A DNA stretch of 22,785 nt, taken from NCBI GenBank assembly GCA_000467715.1, contig AJFK01000602.1:1-22785 (forward strand), written 5' to 3'. The DNA comes from Hysterium pulicare CBS 123377 (Eukaryota; Ascomycota; Dothideomycetes; Hysteriales; Hysteriaceae). The translations under genes were made by a program, and so were the position numbers. The notes under the pieces are model-generated. The model ran no database searches. It saw nothing but the letters and a program-made list of their open reading frames with translations, and had not been told where the DNA came from. Shown here piece by piece: positions 5,101 through 19,417 of the stretch (position 1 is its first letter; the number at the start of each line of letters is the position of its first letter).

Positions 5101-6362
5101 ACCTCAAGCGACTCAAGGTATTCCAGACCCCTCGCAGCCTCTTCTATACAACCTTTATATGGATGAGTGATGGACACGGAGAACTTCTCCGCTTCTTCGA
5201 GACAATCCGCAGCTAGTGGACCGACCAGAAAACCCACCAATCAAGATTCCAACGGCCAGCCTTTGCCAACTTCTTCTCATATTGGGCTCTATGGGTTCAG
5301 TGCCTTTGGTTGGAGTCGACATCAAAACCCATATGTTTGGGAGTTAGGCTTGGTAGAGAGCGATTCGGTAGACATGGTTCGGCGCATCCGAGATAATGGA
5401 AAGCCAATGGAGAATGGGCTCAAGTTCATGCCCATTTATCGAACGAGATCCAATCATACCGGGACGCCATTGTGCAGGGATGCTTTAGGCATATAGACTC
5501 TTCAGTCGGAGAGCCGAGAAAGACCATTCGATATACTTCTCAGGTACTTGAAAGCAATACACCATTTAACCCCACGGTGATCCACCAACCCCATAACGCC
5601 ACCCAGCAACCAGCCCCAAGAGCACACAACTGGGATTTCAGCAAAAGGCATGACTACGTTAACCCCATCCCAATTCGGAACTCGTCGAATCGACTCTAAA
5701 TCTGACCTTCCCGAGATCTGAAGCTCAGCCAAGCGATGTTTTCGATTCTAGGGTTTACAACTGCGAGGACATTCCTCTGCAGGCGGTCTCAAGAAGAAGC
5801 AAATGCGCATTAATTCTCGAAGACGATGCATGCATGCGCCATAATGCTGGCATGTTAAGCCAATGAATGCGGCAAGCCTCTGCTGAAGACGATGCTATCA
5901 AGCTCACACACAGCGTCCTCAATTGACGCATTGGTTTTGCACAACCTCCACGTTATTTTTATTGGATCCAATTTTCCACAGGAATACCTCTTTCTTAAAA
6001 TGCATTTGATGGTATGCAGCCAACGATAATGATCTCGGTATCATGTCGTCTTTCTACACTTGTTAGCGTGTAGGACCTATGCAGCAACCCGAACCACGTC
6101 ACCGCGCAATTTCCATGAACAAAGACCCAAAGGTCTCTCCCCTTAATCCATATTGCTGCTCTTTCACATACTTTCCTCTTCAAACGCCGATAGACAATTC
6201 CACAACCCACTCGATCAACCACGCGGATTGCGGAAGAACTGGAATAGTAGAAGCAAACTTCTTATTTTCCCTATAATAGACGGGGCTTGCTCTCGTTTAA
6301 AGATCCAGCATTTGGTAACGATCCAATTTTCCCCGCGGATCAGTCCCAGTTCCCACCACAAT
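2185..6362. other. About 4.2 kb without a gene I can support
   Basis: Several frames of 60-110 codons occur on both strands. Minus-strand examples are 4165-4356, 4428-4748, 4950-5240 and 5502-5732. A plus-strand example is 5167-5496. The 4165-4356 frame ends in a charged helix (MSWQYIKEQAERAIQKDW). The 4950-5240 frame contains CLEEAEKFSVSITHPYKG. Either could be the last exon of a diverged gene, but neither has a clean splice pair or recognisable fold. The last 200 bp before 6363 should contain the promoter and 5' UTR of the TB2/DP1 gene. I see no unambiguous TATA box there. Confidence 0.4.
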
Positions 6363-6913
6363 ATGCTTCCGTTGTACGTTCGGCGTATGCTGGCCCCAGC
6401 CATATCGAACCCCCATGCTAGCGGCATCGCAGTACTCTACATCATACTGGTTGGTCTCGACTTCAACGCGAGATTTCTGGTTGACTTGGCCGCATTCGTT
6501 CTTGGGTGCAAGCCTACTTTGGCCGTGATGTTCAGCTCTGGTAGCGACAAGATGCCGAATCAGCGCAAATGGGTCTCATACTTTCTCATGCTCGTCCTTC
6601 TTACTGTCCTTGAAAGCCTAGTCCGCCTTCTCAGTCTCGCGGAGAGAATGCCTCTCTGGTACACTTTCAAATTCATTGGATTGCTTGTCTTGACTCAATA
6701 CGGGTGAGTTTGCTCAACGATAAGTGCTACTACTGGCGAGAAATCTGACTTCATCATTGCAGCTGGCTCGATTACGTCTCTGATTCGCTCCTGACGCCAA
6801 TAGTCACCAGGAATCTCCCGAAGTCACGTCCGACCGTACCCCCGAAACCTCAGAAGTTCGACAAACTACGACCGGCTTTCGGATCACAGCAAGCCCCTCG
6901 AATGGATGCATAA
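6363..6913 (+). CDS. TB2/DP1/HVA22 (Yop1/REEP-type) membrane-shaping protein
   Basis: Two exons, 6363-6703 and 6763-6913, give 163 residues. The intron (6704-6762, 59 nt) has GTGAGT, a CTGAC branch at 6745-6749 and a CAG acceptor, and it splits a Gly codon. The ATG at 6363 is the first in frame. Residues 21-56 and 70-112 form two hydrophobic hairpins. Between them lies W70, then E84, then the family signature block P97-L-W-Y100..K103..GLLVL and a short C-terminal amphipathic stretch (residues 115-128). The segment LVDLAAFVLG (residues 39-48) matches the conserved first hairpin of the family. Members shape tubular ER by wedging hairpins into the bilayer and oligomerising. This one is a little shorter than yeast Yop1 (about 180 residues), with a proline- and basic-rich tail. 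Divergence at the usual YYS(L/I)KA block (here KPTLAVM) suggests a paralogue rather than the canonical Yop1. Confidence 0.93.
6704..6762 (+). other. Intron of the TB2/DP1 gene
   Basis: 59 nt with a GTGAGT donor, CTGAC branch 13 nt before the acceptor and a CAG end. The spliced frame restores the conserved family reading across the junction, so this intron is secure. It serves as the reference for splice signals elsewhere in the window. Confidence 0.95.
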
Positions 6914-11643: not shown

Positions 11644-12968
11644 ACGGCAATACCAAGTACCACTGCAATTAAGAATGGGATATACTTAACTAGATTAAAG
11701 GGTCGATGGGAGCAAGGGAAGCAAAACCAGGATTCCTGTAGATCTCGTTGAATAAAGCCATCAAGGAGCGGCGCTAATCAATGGGGGATGTTCATTATCT
11801 GGGAATCGTTACTTTCAGAGTAGACTCCATAAAGTTCAAAGAATAAAAAAGAAACTGACCATCCCGGAATCATCACATCATGATAAAAGTTTTAATTCGC
11901 ACCAATGGAGGTGAAAATCATCTCAGAAGCATGGCAAGCGCGACGGAAGCTATGAAGTTCAAAAAATGAAGGGGAAGTGAATTGTCGTATAGCTGCACTG
12001 CTTTTCGGCTCATGGATCCCAAGGTAGAGGATAAAGGTAAAGCTCAACGTAACAAAGACGGCTCTGGAGAAAGAAGAAAGGCAAAGACCGTGGCGTAATA
12101 TTTCTTTGAGATCTCTGGTACATTGGGTGCCTGGGTTCTTGAATGTGAGGTTGAGATGGTGATTCGGTGGAAGACATAGTTTGACGAACCTTTGGGCAAG
12201 ACTAAGTATTTTTAGATGGCCTCTGAAAGTCAACAATAAGTGCTCGATGTGTGCTGGGGTTGACACGCCATGACAAGCGACCCTCCTGCAGTCGCGGTCA
12301 TGCTCAAAGATTGGGTGCACAAGAGAAATTGAATTAATGTAAGACTGCCCCGCGGCAATCTCACAAGTTACTAAGTACTATGATCGCCAAAAGGATGAGG
12401 TCCCTCGTCTTCGACTTGTTATCCTAAGGGTTGGCAACGTGGAACTCTCTCAATCTGGACATGAGGTGACGAACCACCACGTATTCCATTCGGGAACTTG
12501 AGAAGCGCCTCGCCACACGCTACTTCCCCACATCATTTCGTTATCGAACATCCCACTACGACATATGCATTTCCATATGTGGGAAACGGCTAGCTCGTCA
12601 ATTAAGCAAGACGCATCTTCGTGGCATACAGCCATTGCCCCACACCTCACCGAGTATCCAGTGCTCGTCCCGAAGAGAGTACTGAAATATCGATGAACAC
12701 GCTGTGTATTGATGCTGTGAAATAATCACTCTGCGTTGAATATGCTAGAATGCACCAGAGTGGCAAACATCTTTGATTTCTATGTCTCACTTCCTTTGTT
12801 TGCGACTTCAATAGAACATTGACCCGAAGATTCAAGCAAAATCAAGACGGAGTCACCGTGATTCTACTAGATTGGAGACCCAAACTCACGAGTTAAAAGG
12901 ATAGTTGATCGCCTACAGGTTCTGTCAGCTAACGTGGATCTGCAACTACTTCAGCACAACCAACCAAC
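11644..12968. other. No gene seen; promoter region of the 444-residue protein at its right end
   Basis: A 142-codon minus-strand frame (11892-12320) starts at GTG and shows no motif. Another minus-strand ATG near 12184 begins MSSTESPSQP but closes after about 55 codons. Both are unsupported. The last 60 bp before 12969 are rich in CA/AAC words typical of a fungal 5' UTR (CAACCAACATG). Confidence 0.45.
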
Positions 12969-14303
12969 ATGACTCACCCGCCAACCGTGCTACACGACCG
13001 CGATGCCAGAAACCCAGATATCATCGCCCCAAAAGATCCTTTTCGTGGATGGAAGGTGTCTAGCCTTCGAGATTATTGCAGAAAAATGATGCCAAATCCG
13101 CCTGCATTCAACACATCGGATCTGGAGAGCCTACCCACAGCCCATCTGCTGTTCCTAGCGCAGCTATTGTATGAGGAAAAGACGCTCCCCAGCCTAGACC
13201 ACCTTCAAGAATCGATACAATCAACGGTTAATCCGGGAACCGCAGAGGTTAATAAGAAGAGTGATAAGGATGCCATCCGGACAGACGGGCTTCCATTGTA
13301 TCAAAAGCTCTTTAGGTTGCGATGTTTTCAGCTAGACAGATCATTACTTGTCGCCGACGATTTCAATAAGGCCAAATCAGTAACCCTTCAAACCGACAAG
13401 GAAGGTGCGAATCCTGCGTTGACAGAACACGCTCGTCCTACGCCTATGCCCATGGAGACAAACCATCCCTCCCCAGGTGAACCGGCGAAGCGTGAATCAT
13501 CGCAACCCGAACTCCCTCAACCAGAGCTTTCTCGTCAATCCCATGCGCCTGTGAAGGTAGAAGGTCATTCTCCGGTAGATGAACGCGCTGGAATTCAACC
13601 CTCGAAAGGCGGACACGCGCAAGATGCTGCCCCGAAAGAAGGACGGAAGAAAGGTGGACCCCACCGTGGGCCAAGGGCAGGGAAGAAGTGGTTCTGGATT
13701 ACCGCGGTGCTTATTATCGCAGTGATTGTTGTTCCGCTCTGCGTGCTCTTCAATGTCTCGGAATGGCTCTCCATGATGGCGGAATGGCTCTCCATGATGT
13801 CGGAATGGCTCCGCACAAGTCGGGAATGGCTCCGCGCCATCTGGGAGAACCTTCGCATCATCGGGCAATGGGTCTTTCGCCTTCCAGAGATTCTGATGCG
13901 CGTACGGGACTTCTCCCTTCGGATGTGGAGGGAAAGCGAGGCGATACGTCGAGTTGTGGCCAGCATCGCCTCGTTCGTTTGGTCGGCGGTGGTAAGCTCC
14001 TGTCAGGCCATCCTGTGGGCAAAAGACAACGCCAGGATCCTATGGCGTGAGCTACTTGGGTTCGTGAAGGTTGTAGTCGCGTCTTGGAAAGCTACTGGTT
14101 TCGCCAACGCAACGGCGAACGGGTCAAGCTCTTGCCAAGAAAATACTGAGTTGGCCAGGAACCTCTCCTCGAAATTAGCAGAAGCCTTGGCTGCAAATTC
14201 GGAGATTATGGCTACAAATCAGGACACACTAGCCGCAAATAAGGAGCTTATCAACTCAGTTGCCAGCCTGTTGAACAAGACTTGTACCGAGGGAGTCTGC
14301 TGA
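12969..14303 (+). CDS. Single-pass (or two-pass) membrane protein with heptad repeat, 444 aa
   Basis: An intronless frame of 444 codons with a good start context (CAACCAACATG); chance cannot explain its length. Residues 1-70 look globular (FRGWKVSSLRDYCRKM, LLFLAQLLYEE). Residues 150-225 are low-complexity, rich in Pro, Glu, Ser and Lys. A basic patch (KKGGPHRGPRAGKK, 227-240) precedes a transmembrane helix at 241-261. Five heptads beginning EWL or ENL follow at 265-299. A second hydrophobic stretch lies at 329-351. The tail 385-435 is a coiled-coil-like A/N/L-rich helix bracketed by cysteines (C389, C439, C444). Five N-glycosylation sequons lie after the transmembrane segment (N262, N380, N384, N398, N436) and one before it (N48). 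With the basic patch this favours cytosolic N and lumenal or outside C, unless 329-351 crosses back. I do not recognise the family. A tether or surface sensor is inference. Confidence 0.9.
   Translation: MTHPPTVLHDRDARNPDIIAPKDPFRGWKVSSLRDYCRKMMPNPPAFNTSDLESLPTAHLLFLAQLLYEEKTLPSLDHLQESIQSTVNPGTAEVNKKSDKDAIRTDGLPLYQKLFRLRCFQLDRSLLVADDFNKAKSVTLQTDKEGANPALTEHARPTPMPMETNHPSPGEPAKRESSQPELPQPELSRQSHAPVKVEGHSPVDERAGIQPSKGGHAQDAAPKEGRKKGGPHRGPRAGKKWFWITAVLIIAVIVVPLCVLFNVSEWLSMMAEWLSMMSEWLRTSREWLRAIWENLRIIGQWVFRLPEILMRVRDFSLRMWRESEAIRRVVASIASFVWSAVVSSCQAILWAKDNARILWRELLGFVKVVVASWKATGFANATANGSSSCQENTELARNLSSKLAEALAANSEIMATNQDTLAANKELINSVASLLNKTCTEGVC
13761..13865 (+). repeat. 21-bp tandem repeat encoding heptads
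   Basis: Five in-frame 21-bp units, the first two nearly identical (GAATGGCTCTCCATGATG plus a GCG/TCG codon), decaying through the third to fifth. The unit encodes E-W-L-(S/R)-x-x-x. It lies immediately C-terminal to the transmembrane segment of the 444-residue protein. Confidence 0.9.
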
Positions 14304-18297: not shown

Positions 18298-19417
18298 TCA
18301 AACCAGCAAACTCTCAAGATCATCTGCACATTCTCCCGCGACTCCGATTACCTCCCTCTTCTGGACAGCCGTCTTCTGCGGCAAGTTTTCCACGGCATTT
18401 GATAATTTTGACGCGATCTTCTTAGTCGCCTCCTTTAGGTCTTCGTACCGCTTTCCCTGGCCCGCAAGCATCTCCTCAAGGTTTTTGTTGCGCCGAGATA
18501 GCGCATCAAACTGCCGTTCCAGGTGTGTCGGATCGCGAACCCACAGTCCTTTCGTTGCATCTAAGGAGCGTGGGGCGTCTCCACTTGGGTGTAATCCTAC
18601 AGCCCCAGACTCTAAGGAAGAGATCTCAGGGCCCGACGATGGTTCTGCTTTGTATATGTTAGCATTTCAAAGCTAGCATTGGAAATATCGAGTTGAAACA
18701 GTCAAGAATACCTTACCTTCTGCTGAACTCTCCCTTACCGATGAAGCGCCTATCGGAGGGGTGGGGGTTAGAAATGGGGAATGGTTTAGCTCACTTGCGC
18801 TTCCAACCAGCTGCTTTCCCTTCGCTTTCTCTTTCAGGGGGGACATATCGGCCTGTTCAGAATCACCGTCAGCATATTTCTCATCCTTGCTTGGAGTGTC
18901 CCGCACTTTGACTACAGCCTGAATGGAGGATGATCGCCCAGTTAACTCCCTTTTCATCTTCAGAGGTATCTTCACTAGAGATATTCTCCTGTCCAGCACT
19001 ATCGTCAGCAGTGTCCTGGTTGTTGATTGGAGTAATCCAAACCTTCTTCAAAGCTTGCCTTGCTGCTGTCGCAGTGAGTTGGCGTCTTGGGGCTTTACCC
19101 CCAGTTGATTTTTTGGCCGCCTTCGTCTTGGGAGCGTATTCAGTTTATAAATTCACCTGTATGAAATTATCGTCAAAGAAGTCCCCATCTATTGCTGGAA
19201 GTGACCCAGTCCTCTTTCCATGTCCGTTGATGCATATTTCACCCAGCCGTTCTCTGGAAAGAGTGCGGTTCTTTTTCTATCTCGACTTTGGTGTAGAATA
19301 ACTCACATATGCTTCTCGTCTAGGTACCGCATCAGCACGAAGATCCTCGGGTTTTTGCTCCGGCCTTGGGTTCCCGCGACCCCTTTTACCTAGTGTTGCC
19401 TGCATCTTTGACGGCAT
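18298..19417 (-). CDS. Histone H3 tail-mimic protein, coiled-coil C-terminus, 267 aa
   Basis: Four exons: 19417-19307, 19126-18976, 18911-18717 and 18644-18298. ATG 19417 is the first ATG and has a good context (CAACAATGCC). Intron 1 is 180 nt (GTGAGT...CCCAAG). Intron 2 is 64 nt (GTGAAG...TGTAG, the weakest call). Intron 3 is 72 nt (GTAAGG, branch GCTAAC, tandem AAGCAG acceptor). The phases agree throughout. Residues 1-37 are basic (GKRGRGNPRPEQK). Residues 36-60 align with H3 residues 1-26, identical over KSTGGKAPR (43-51), then QL and AAR. Residues 60-152 are acidic, Ser-rich and disordered-looking. Residues 194-238 form a likely coiled coil (LERQFDALSRRNKNLEEML). There is no histone fold. 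By analogy with known H3-tail mimics it may recruit or decoy H3K9/K14 modifiers or readers in the nucleus; that role is inference. Confidence 0.85.
19058..19126 (-). other. H3-tail-like motif (residues 38-60)
   Basis: First 23 codons of exon 2. TK..KKSTGGKAPR.QL...AAR corresponds to H3 T3-K4, R8-R17, Q19-L20 and A24-R26, with one residue missing where H3 has Q5-T6. Lysines equal to K4, K9 and K14, Ser10 and Thr11 are kept. R2 is Tyr, K18 is Arg, K23 is Thr and K27 is Gln. The preceding exon supplies an Ala matching H3 A1. Codon choice is unlike a recent copy of a strongly biased H3 gene. Confidence 0.9.

Follow-up and report, generated by a model that had tools for sequence, protein, structure and literature searches.

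Does a fungal gene with no histone fold carry an imitation of the histone H3 tail, and what might such an imitation do? The question is raised by contig AJFK01000602.1 (here C427) of Hysterium pulicare CBS 123377 (GCA_000467715.1), of which positions 1-22,785, all 22,785 nucleotides of the stretch presented here, were analysed as the window. On the minus strand, the frame that starts at 19126 encodes the segment TKAAKKSTGGKAPRRQLTATAARQALKK, in which KSTGGKAPR is an exact copy of H3 9-17, nine residues running, as a sequence-only reading of the window had claimed. The genome to which C427 belongs, and which was searched for comparison, comprises 37,200,777 bases in 596 contigs. The predicted features of the gene and four further H3-tail-like stretches found in the genome are listed in Table 1.

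Table 1. Predicted features of the gene on C427 and H3-tail-like stretches on other contigs
Feature	Position	Strand	Description
Exon 1 (predicted)	19307..19417	-	MPSKMQATLGKRGRGNPRPEQKPEDLRADAVPRREAY; open frame, ATG 19417 to donor GTGAGT at 19306
Intron 1 (predicted)	19127..19306	-	180 nt, GTGAGT...CCCAAG
H3-tail-like segment, first part of exon 2	19043..19126	-	TKAAKKSTGGKAPRRQLTATAARQALKK; Lys43 and Lys48 equivalent to H3K9 and H3K14
Acidic linker, remainder of exon 2 in the 267-residue model	18976..19042	-	VWITPINNQDTADDSAGQENIS; same open frame as the H3-like segment
Intron 2 (predicted, uncertain)	18912..18975	-	64 nt, GTGAAG...TGTAG
Exon 3 (predicted)	18717..18911	-	Open frame; charged, likely disordered
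Intron 3 (predicted)	18645..18716	-	72 nt, GTAAGG...AAGCAG; one of several open joins, preferred because donor (GTAAGG) and acceptor (CAG) are good
Exon 4 (predicted)	18298..18644	-	Heptad pattern LERQFDALSRRNKNLEEML..., then stop
C478 stretch	C478:44078-43956	-	41 residues, MARS start, near-complete H3 tail at a free N-terminus
C526 stretch	C526:60267-60350		RRTSAKAPRKQLASKAARKSAPSAGSV, within a 771-residue open frame reaching the contig end
C560:39957 stretch	C560:39957		MARTIQTAPRSAGGKAPRKQLGAMSAAPCRP, MARTIQT... start; followed downstream by a frame whose DUF7730 match scored 26.8 bits (cut-off 27 bits)
C560:38327 stretch	C560:38327		MARTGQTSRFSTTGKVPRGRLASK, MARTGQT... start; downstream of C560:37002-37565, a frame above the DUF7730 cut-off

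Likeness of the segment to the H3 tail

With one gap allowed, 17 residues within exon 2 itself are identical to H3 1-26. The earlier count of 18 identities depends on the splice, because the eighteenth, Ala1, is supplied by the end of exon 1 (REAY/TK). The equivalence to K4 depends on the alignment gap, and an ungapped alignment gave 15 identities in 24 residues to H3 5-28. The equivalents of H3 A7, K9, S10 and T11 were retained in the segment. Local alignment of the segment with the H3 tail gave a top score of 80, compared with a maximum of 57 among 600 residue-shuffles of the open stretches of the window and a maximum of 59 in a separate set of 200 shuffles. The corresponding Gumbel p value was approximately 2e-7 per window, or approximately 3e-4 when multiplied by the roughly 1,630 genome windows of equal size. 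A phmmer search of PDB returned 135 sequences at E <= 10, and the best 60 of these 135 were all H3 or H3 variants, with a top E value of 2.6e-5. When the 28-residue segment was searched against the whole genome, the sole match returned was its own locus.

As a control, a prokaryote collection of 257 Gb was searched with a DNA pattern that encodes the nine residues and leaves the Ser position loose. Sixteen stretches were obtained, seven of which were true eukaryotic H3 genes (scores of 169-625) and nine of which were chance matches scoring 44-56 against full-length H3, four of the nine carrying the exact nine residues. None of the nine chance matches had H3-like flanks, whereas the flanks of the fungal segment are H3-like. 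Nine chance matches in 257 Gb therefore correspond to about 0.001 expected in 37 Mb. The seven eukaryotic H3 genes were found in contigs filed as bacterial genomes and represent contamination of the prokaryote collection. A pattern search of viral contigs gave 18 stretches and no relatives.

No histone match was found in Pfam at E <= 1 for the 279-residue version of the protein, which agrees with the earlier claim that the remainder of the protein has no histone fold, and a search of the genome with PF00125 returned 11 matches, none of them on C427. Seven weak matches to Pfam were obtained with the 279-residue version, all below the cut-off, including BRE1 (E 0.012) and OrfB_IS605, a 'probable transposase' (E 0.098). 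OrfB_IS605 and the other weak matches were read as coiled-coil noise. No DUF7730/2EXR domain was found in the predicted protein by Pfam, and C427 was absent from the 121 DUF7730 matches in the genome. When the remainder of the protein was used to look for paralogues in the genome, four matches were returned, all within the window itself. The description of an H3-tail-like segment in a non-histone gene frame is thus backed by a likeness far beyond chance and by the four further stretches in the genome. Judged by sequence, the predicted exon encodes a candidate histone mimic, since its likeness to the H3 tail exceeds chance and the protein is otherwise not a histone.

Other frames of the window were also inspected. 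No transposon domain was found by Pfam in the 10 of its 37 open frames that were searched, which gave one borderline match to TB2/DP1/HVA22 and one weak match to CTNNB1_binding. The borderline match, at 25.4 bits (cut-off 27.2; E 1.4e-5), was located at 6147-6704 on the plus strand. Also on the plus strand, one uninterrupted frame at 12933-14303 spans 456 residues. By eye it contains repeated EWLSMMSEWLR-like units and a stretch that looks membrane-like, and Pfam gave no match for it at E <= 0.1.

Gene model and splicing

The segment had been placed in a four-exon minus-strand gene encoding 267 residues. This length fits introns of 180, 64 and 72 nt, but intron 2 is uncertain, and joins that skip the H3-like segment are also open. 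The codon score of exon 1 was approximately neutral (+0.79 over 37 codons), and that of the H3-like segment was likewise neutral (+0.41 over 28 codons); the latter value counts against the explanation favoured below. The stretch taken as intron 1 contains stops, and its coding score was negative in all three frames. The linker scored +4.19 over 32 codons, a value computed on 19042-18947 and thus extending beyond the end of exon 2. Sliding codon scores in the frame of exon 3 were positive for starts at 18940-18820 and negative from 18790, and those in exon 4 were positive for starts at 18580-18400. The basic start, acidic middle and C-terminal coiled coil of the earlier description are reflected in the basic composition of exon 1 (9 K+R against 5 D+E), the acidic linker and the heptad pattern of exon 4. 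However, the heptad signal is modest, its score being matched by 5 of 500 shuffles. By eye, exon 1 showed no hydrophobic, signal-peptide-like start.

Entry to the H3 frame from the ATG at 19417 was limited to 19126 and 19120, using donors at 19306 (GTGAGT) or 19327 (GTACCT), in a listing of introns of at least 40 nt that presupposed use of the H3 frame. Thirty-four GT-AG joins of 304-559 nt bypass the H3-like segment with the frame open, for example 19306-18919 (388 nt). Introns of 304-559 nt are long by fungal standards. Because these 34 skipping joins are also open, the case for use of the exon comes from the protein-level likeness to H3 and not from the frame alone. Exon-skipping introns would leave an H3-like protein sequence inside an intron without reason.

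Exons 2 and 3 can also be joined across 28 nt (18946-18919), which gives 279 residues, or across 124 nt (19042-18919). The 28-nt join is unlikely because it is too short. The join between these exons is uncertain, and an indel or frame discontinuity in the assembly may be the alternative. Since either the modest donor GTGAAG or another join is needed at this point, the model may be wrong or the gene itself damaged.

Other H3-tail-like stretches in the genome

A query of 41 residues of the H3 tail matched five places in the genome, the window and four others, and all five were in non-histone frames. The reversed tail query gave no match in the genome, an empty answer that by itself shows nothing. 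Full-length H3 matched six places, comprising two exons on C565 of a gene that we judge to be CENP-A-like and four H3-tail-like stretches, and it missed the window. A query of H3 12-43 matched C526 only; sensitivity is therefore limited and the five mimics are a lower bound. The loci scanned for further mimics amounted, overlaps included, to 263,887 bases; in them the five mimics scored at least 76 and the next best stretch scored 55. Of the 121 DUF7730 matches, the scanned loci covered only 30, and thus further mimics may exist.

On C478, the stretch is followed by a frame jump and then, in another frame and by eye, by a KKPR nuclear-type motif and a heptad-like helix. The C526 frame encodes a vWA domain (VWA_3, E 3.1e-26) and carries AKAPRKQLASKAARKSAP, in which H3 K14, K18, K23 and K27 are retained, ahead of an acidic stretch. 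On C560, the sub-cut-off DUF7730 frame downstream of C560:39957 was absent from the list of 121 genome matches, and the part of C560:37002-37565 given to the Pfam scan had no DUF7730 match, though this frame was above the cut-off in the genome search. The two H3-like N-termini on C560 are near DUF7730/2EXR-like frames, and their splicing to DUF7730 proteins is putative. The 121 genome matches to DUF7730 (PF24864) were obtained at E <= 0.1 and include pieces of one and the same gene; they represent a large family expansion.

The pattern MARTxQT had five matches, namely one canonical H3, the two C560 mimics, C23 and C486, and the reversed pattern had one match. C23 and C486 were dropped, as their likeness to H3 was lost beyond the pattern. 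C22, one of three matches to the pattern GKAPRxQ, was dropped at a score of 45. A weak match to the tail of C560:39957 was found at C429 (E 0.013), with internal stops. The canonical H3 lies at C444:1-74, where it begins with MARTKQTA at C444:74 and enters an apparent intron before the contig ends; an H4 exon is located on the same contig at C444:875-979. No second canonical H3 was returned by the full-length H3 and H3-tail searches of the genome.

Residues and codons of the five mimics were compared in all ten pairs, which are not mutually independent, with codon usage calculated from 39 frames (for each locus the longest one with 220 residues or more). Over the ten pairs, residues coincided at 107 places; at 35 of these the codon was also identical, compared with 30.5 expected under independent draws. 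Codon sharing was uneven, with 6 of 10 between the window and C526 (2.8 expected) and 6 of 10 between C526 and C560:39957 (3.1 expected). Because the codons of shared residues agree about as often as under random choice, the likeness does not come from recent copying of H3 DNA, and protein-level retention of H3-like residues is suggested by the sequences. K14, R17 and L20 were common to all five mimics. The G-K-x-P core was kept in three of the five, the window and both C560 stretches, and was absent from C478 and C526; the five mimics therefore need not all depend on the same enzyme.

Possible explanations and known systems

The sites that histone modifiers could use in the segment are unequal. 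G-K-x-P is named as the Gcn5 recognition sequence in the available text of PMC3344931. This core is present in the segment, where GGKAPR is intact, and Lys48 (H3K14) is the most likely candidate for a Gcn5-type acetylation site. At the position of the ARKS-type H3K9 site, the segment reads AKKS, with Lys replacing R8. A Lys at R8 should weaken classical K9 methylation, and methylation of Lys43 (H3K9) is less likely because the preceding Arg is missing. H3K4 readers and writers that require the free H3 N-terminus, A-R-T-K, should not recognise an internal K4. In the gene model, TK is internal, behind the 37 residues of exon 1, a position that makes readout as H3K4 unlikely. The earlier proposal of H3-like acetylation or methylation in an oligomeric decoy, scaffold or recruiter therefore appears only partly plausible.

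The mimics suggest that this fungus may employ imitations of histone tails to interact with chromatin enzymes of its own. For the gene in the window, we tentatively favour, at somewhat less than an even chance, a nuclear coiled-coil protein that probably self-associates and in which an internal, flexible H3-tail imitation would act as a docking and substrate site of the H3 tail machinery. Such a protein would present an epitope of H3 9-20, and a Gcn5/SAGA-type acetyltransferase would most likely act at Lys48. The acetylated segment could then be bound by bromodomains. A coiled-coil oligomer would display several H3-like tails and thus be multivalent, and the displayed tails might either recruit H3-modifying complexes or compete with nucleosomes for them, two outcomes that would look alike in sequence. 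A wider proposal is that unrelated proteins (the coiled-coil protein of C427, the probable coiled-coil protein of C478, the vWA protein of C526 and the C560 frames near DUF7730/2EXR-like genes) each acquired and kept an H3-tail portion of about 20-40 residues and together make up a lineage-specific network of imitation tails that titrates or steers H3 acetylation and its readers. We regard this network as doubtful.

The main rival explanation, to which we assign an appreciable chance well below even, is that a piece of an H3 gene was captured, spliced into an unrelated gene and left idle and drifting. Capture of this kind would account for the occurrence of H3 tail sequence in unrelated architectures and for the loss of key lysines in several mimics, and the C560:38327 stretch, which is short, may represent a remnant. 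However, drift should lose synonymous sites and residues alike, whereas the synonymous sites have turned over (35 of 107 against 30.5 expected) while residues such as K14, R17 and L20 were retained. That the exon is wrongly modelled, or that a basic, alanine-rich stretch resembles H3 by chance, would be in line with the neutral codon score of the H3 exon and with the 34 exon-skipping joins that are open in frame. Against this, no shuffle scored above 59 (maxima of 57 and 59) and no chance match to the pattern in the prokaryote collection above 56, compared with 80 for the segment, and a protein-level likeness to H3 over 24 residues is hard to explain within an intron. Chance origin was set aside on these scores, and the combined alternative of mis-modelling or chance is scarcely credible.

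Two further alternatives give the segment a different role. It may serve autoinhibition or partner switching, in which it would occupy the reader domain of a partner or be freed by modification, and the fungal precedent of Swi6/HP1, as described in the available part of PMC7192584, favours this. The retained equivalents of H3 A7, K9, S10 and T11 are consistent with such a role, but Pfam finds no reader domain in the predicted protein. Moreover, a Lys at R8 should weaken chromodomain binding, and we consider autoinhibition unlikely. Export of the protein, to act on chromatin enzymes of a host or competitor, would be paralleled by viral proteins with H3 mimics. However, exon 1 is basic (9 K+R, 5 D+E) and by eye without a hydrophobic, signal-peptide-like stretch, and by eye C478 has a KKPR nuclear-type motif, which makes export very improbable.

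Several long copies of the H3 tail in non-histone proteins of a single fungus, with different lysines kept or lost, would amount to a series of natural mutants with which H3 writers and readers could be compared. With such copies, H3 modifications assigned by antibody, such as K14ac, could partly belong to other proteins. In a largely open-access literature search, no H3-tail copies were found described in fungal coiled-coil, vWA or 2EXR proteins, nor long copies spread over several non-histone proteins of the same fungus; protein databases may contain unremarked copies.

Several known systems resemble the predicted protein in part. Fission yeast Swi6/HP1 is autoinhibited by an H3 mimic sequence, according to the excerpted text of PMC7192584. 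Like the predicted protein, it is a fungal non-histone protein with an internal H3-like sequence. Swi6 has its own chromodomain. Its mimic, as far as described there, serves autoinhibition, whereas the predicted protein has no detected reader domain and a likeness of 24-28 residues. In Shugoshin Sgo1, an N-terminal H3-like motif is bound by the BIR domain of Survivin (available text of PMC10987093). That motif is N-terminal, in contrast to the internal segment of the predicted protein, and the C478 and C560 stretches, which start with MARS or MART, are closer to the Sgo1 arrangement given in that text. Sgo1 also contains a coiled coil and thus, like the predicted protein, combines an H3-like tail with a coiled coil, the latter being predicted here. 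Substrates of EHMT such as WIZ and CDYL carry short H3K9-like motifs (PMC10611923, in the part available). They share with the predicted protein an H3K9-like sequence in a non-histone protein, but their motifs are analysed in that part as ten-residue segments, whereas the predicted protein has Lys in place of R8 and a likeness that extends to approximately H3 26.

Known cellular histone mimics are mostly short motifs, and viral ones act on the host. The influenza NS1 tail and SARS-CoV-2 ORF8 are viral histone mimics and resemble the predicted protein in that a non-histone protein mimics a histone. NS1 and ORF8 are viral, short and host-directed, whereas the H3-tail-like stretches described here occupy a minimum of five reading frames within a single fungus.
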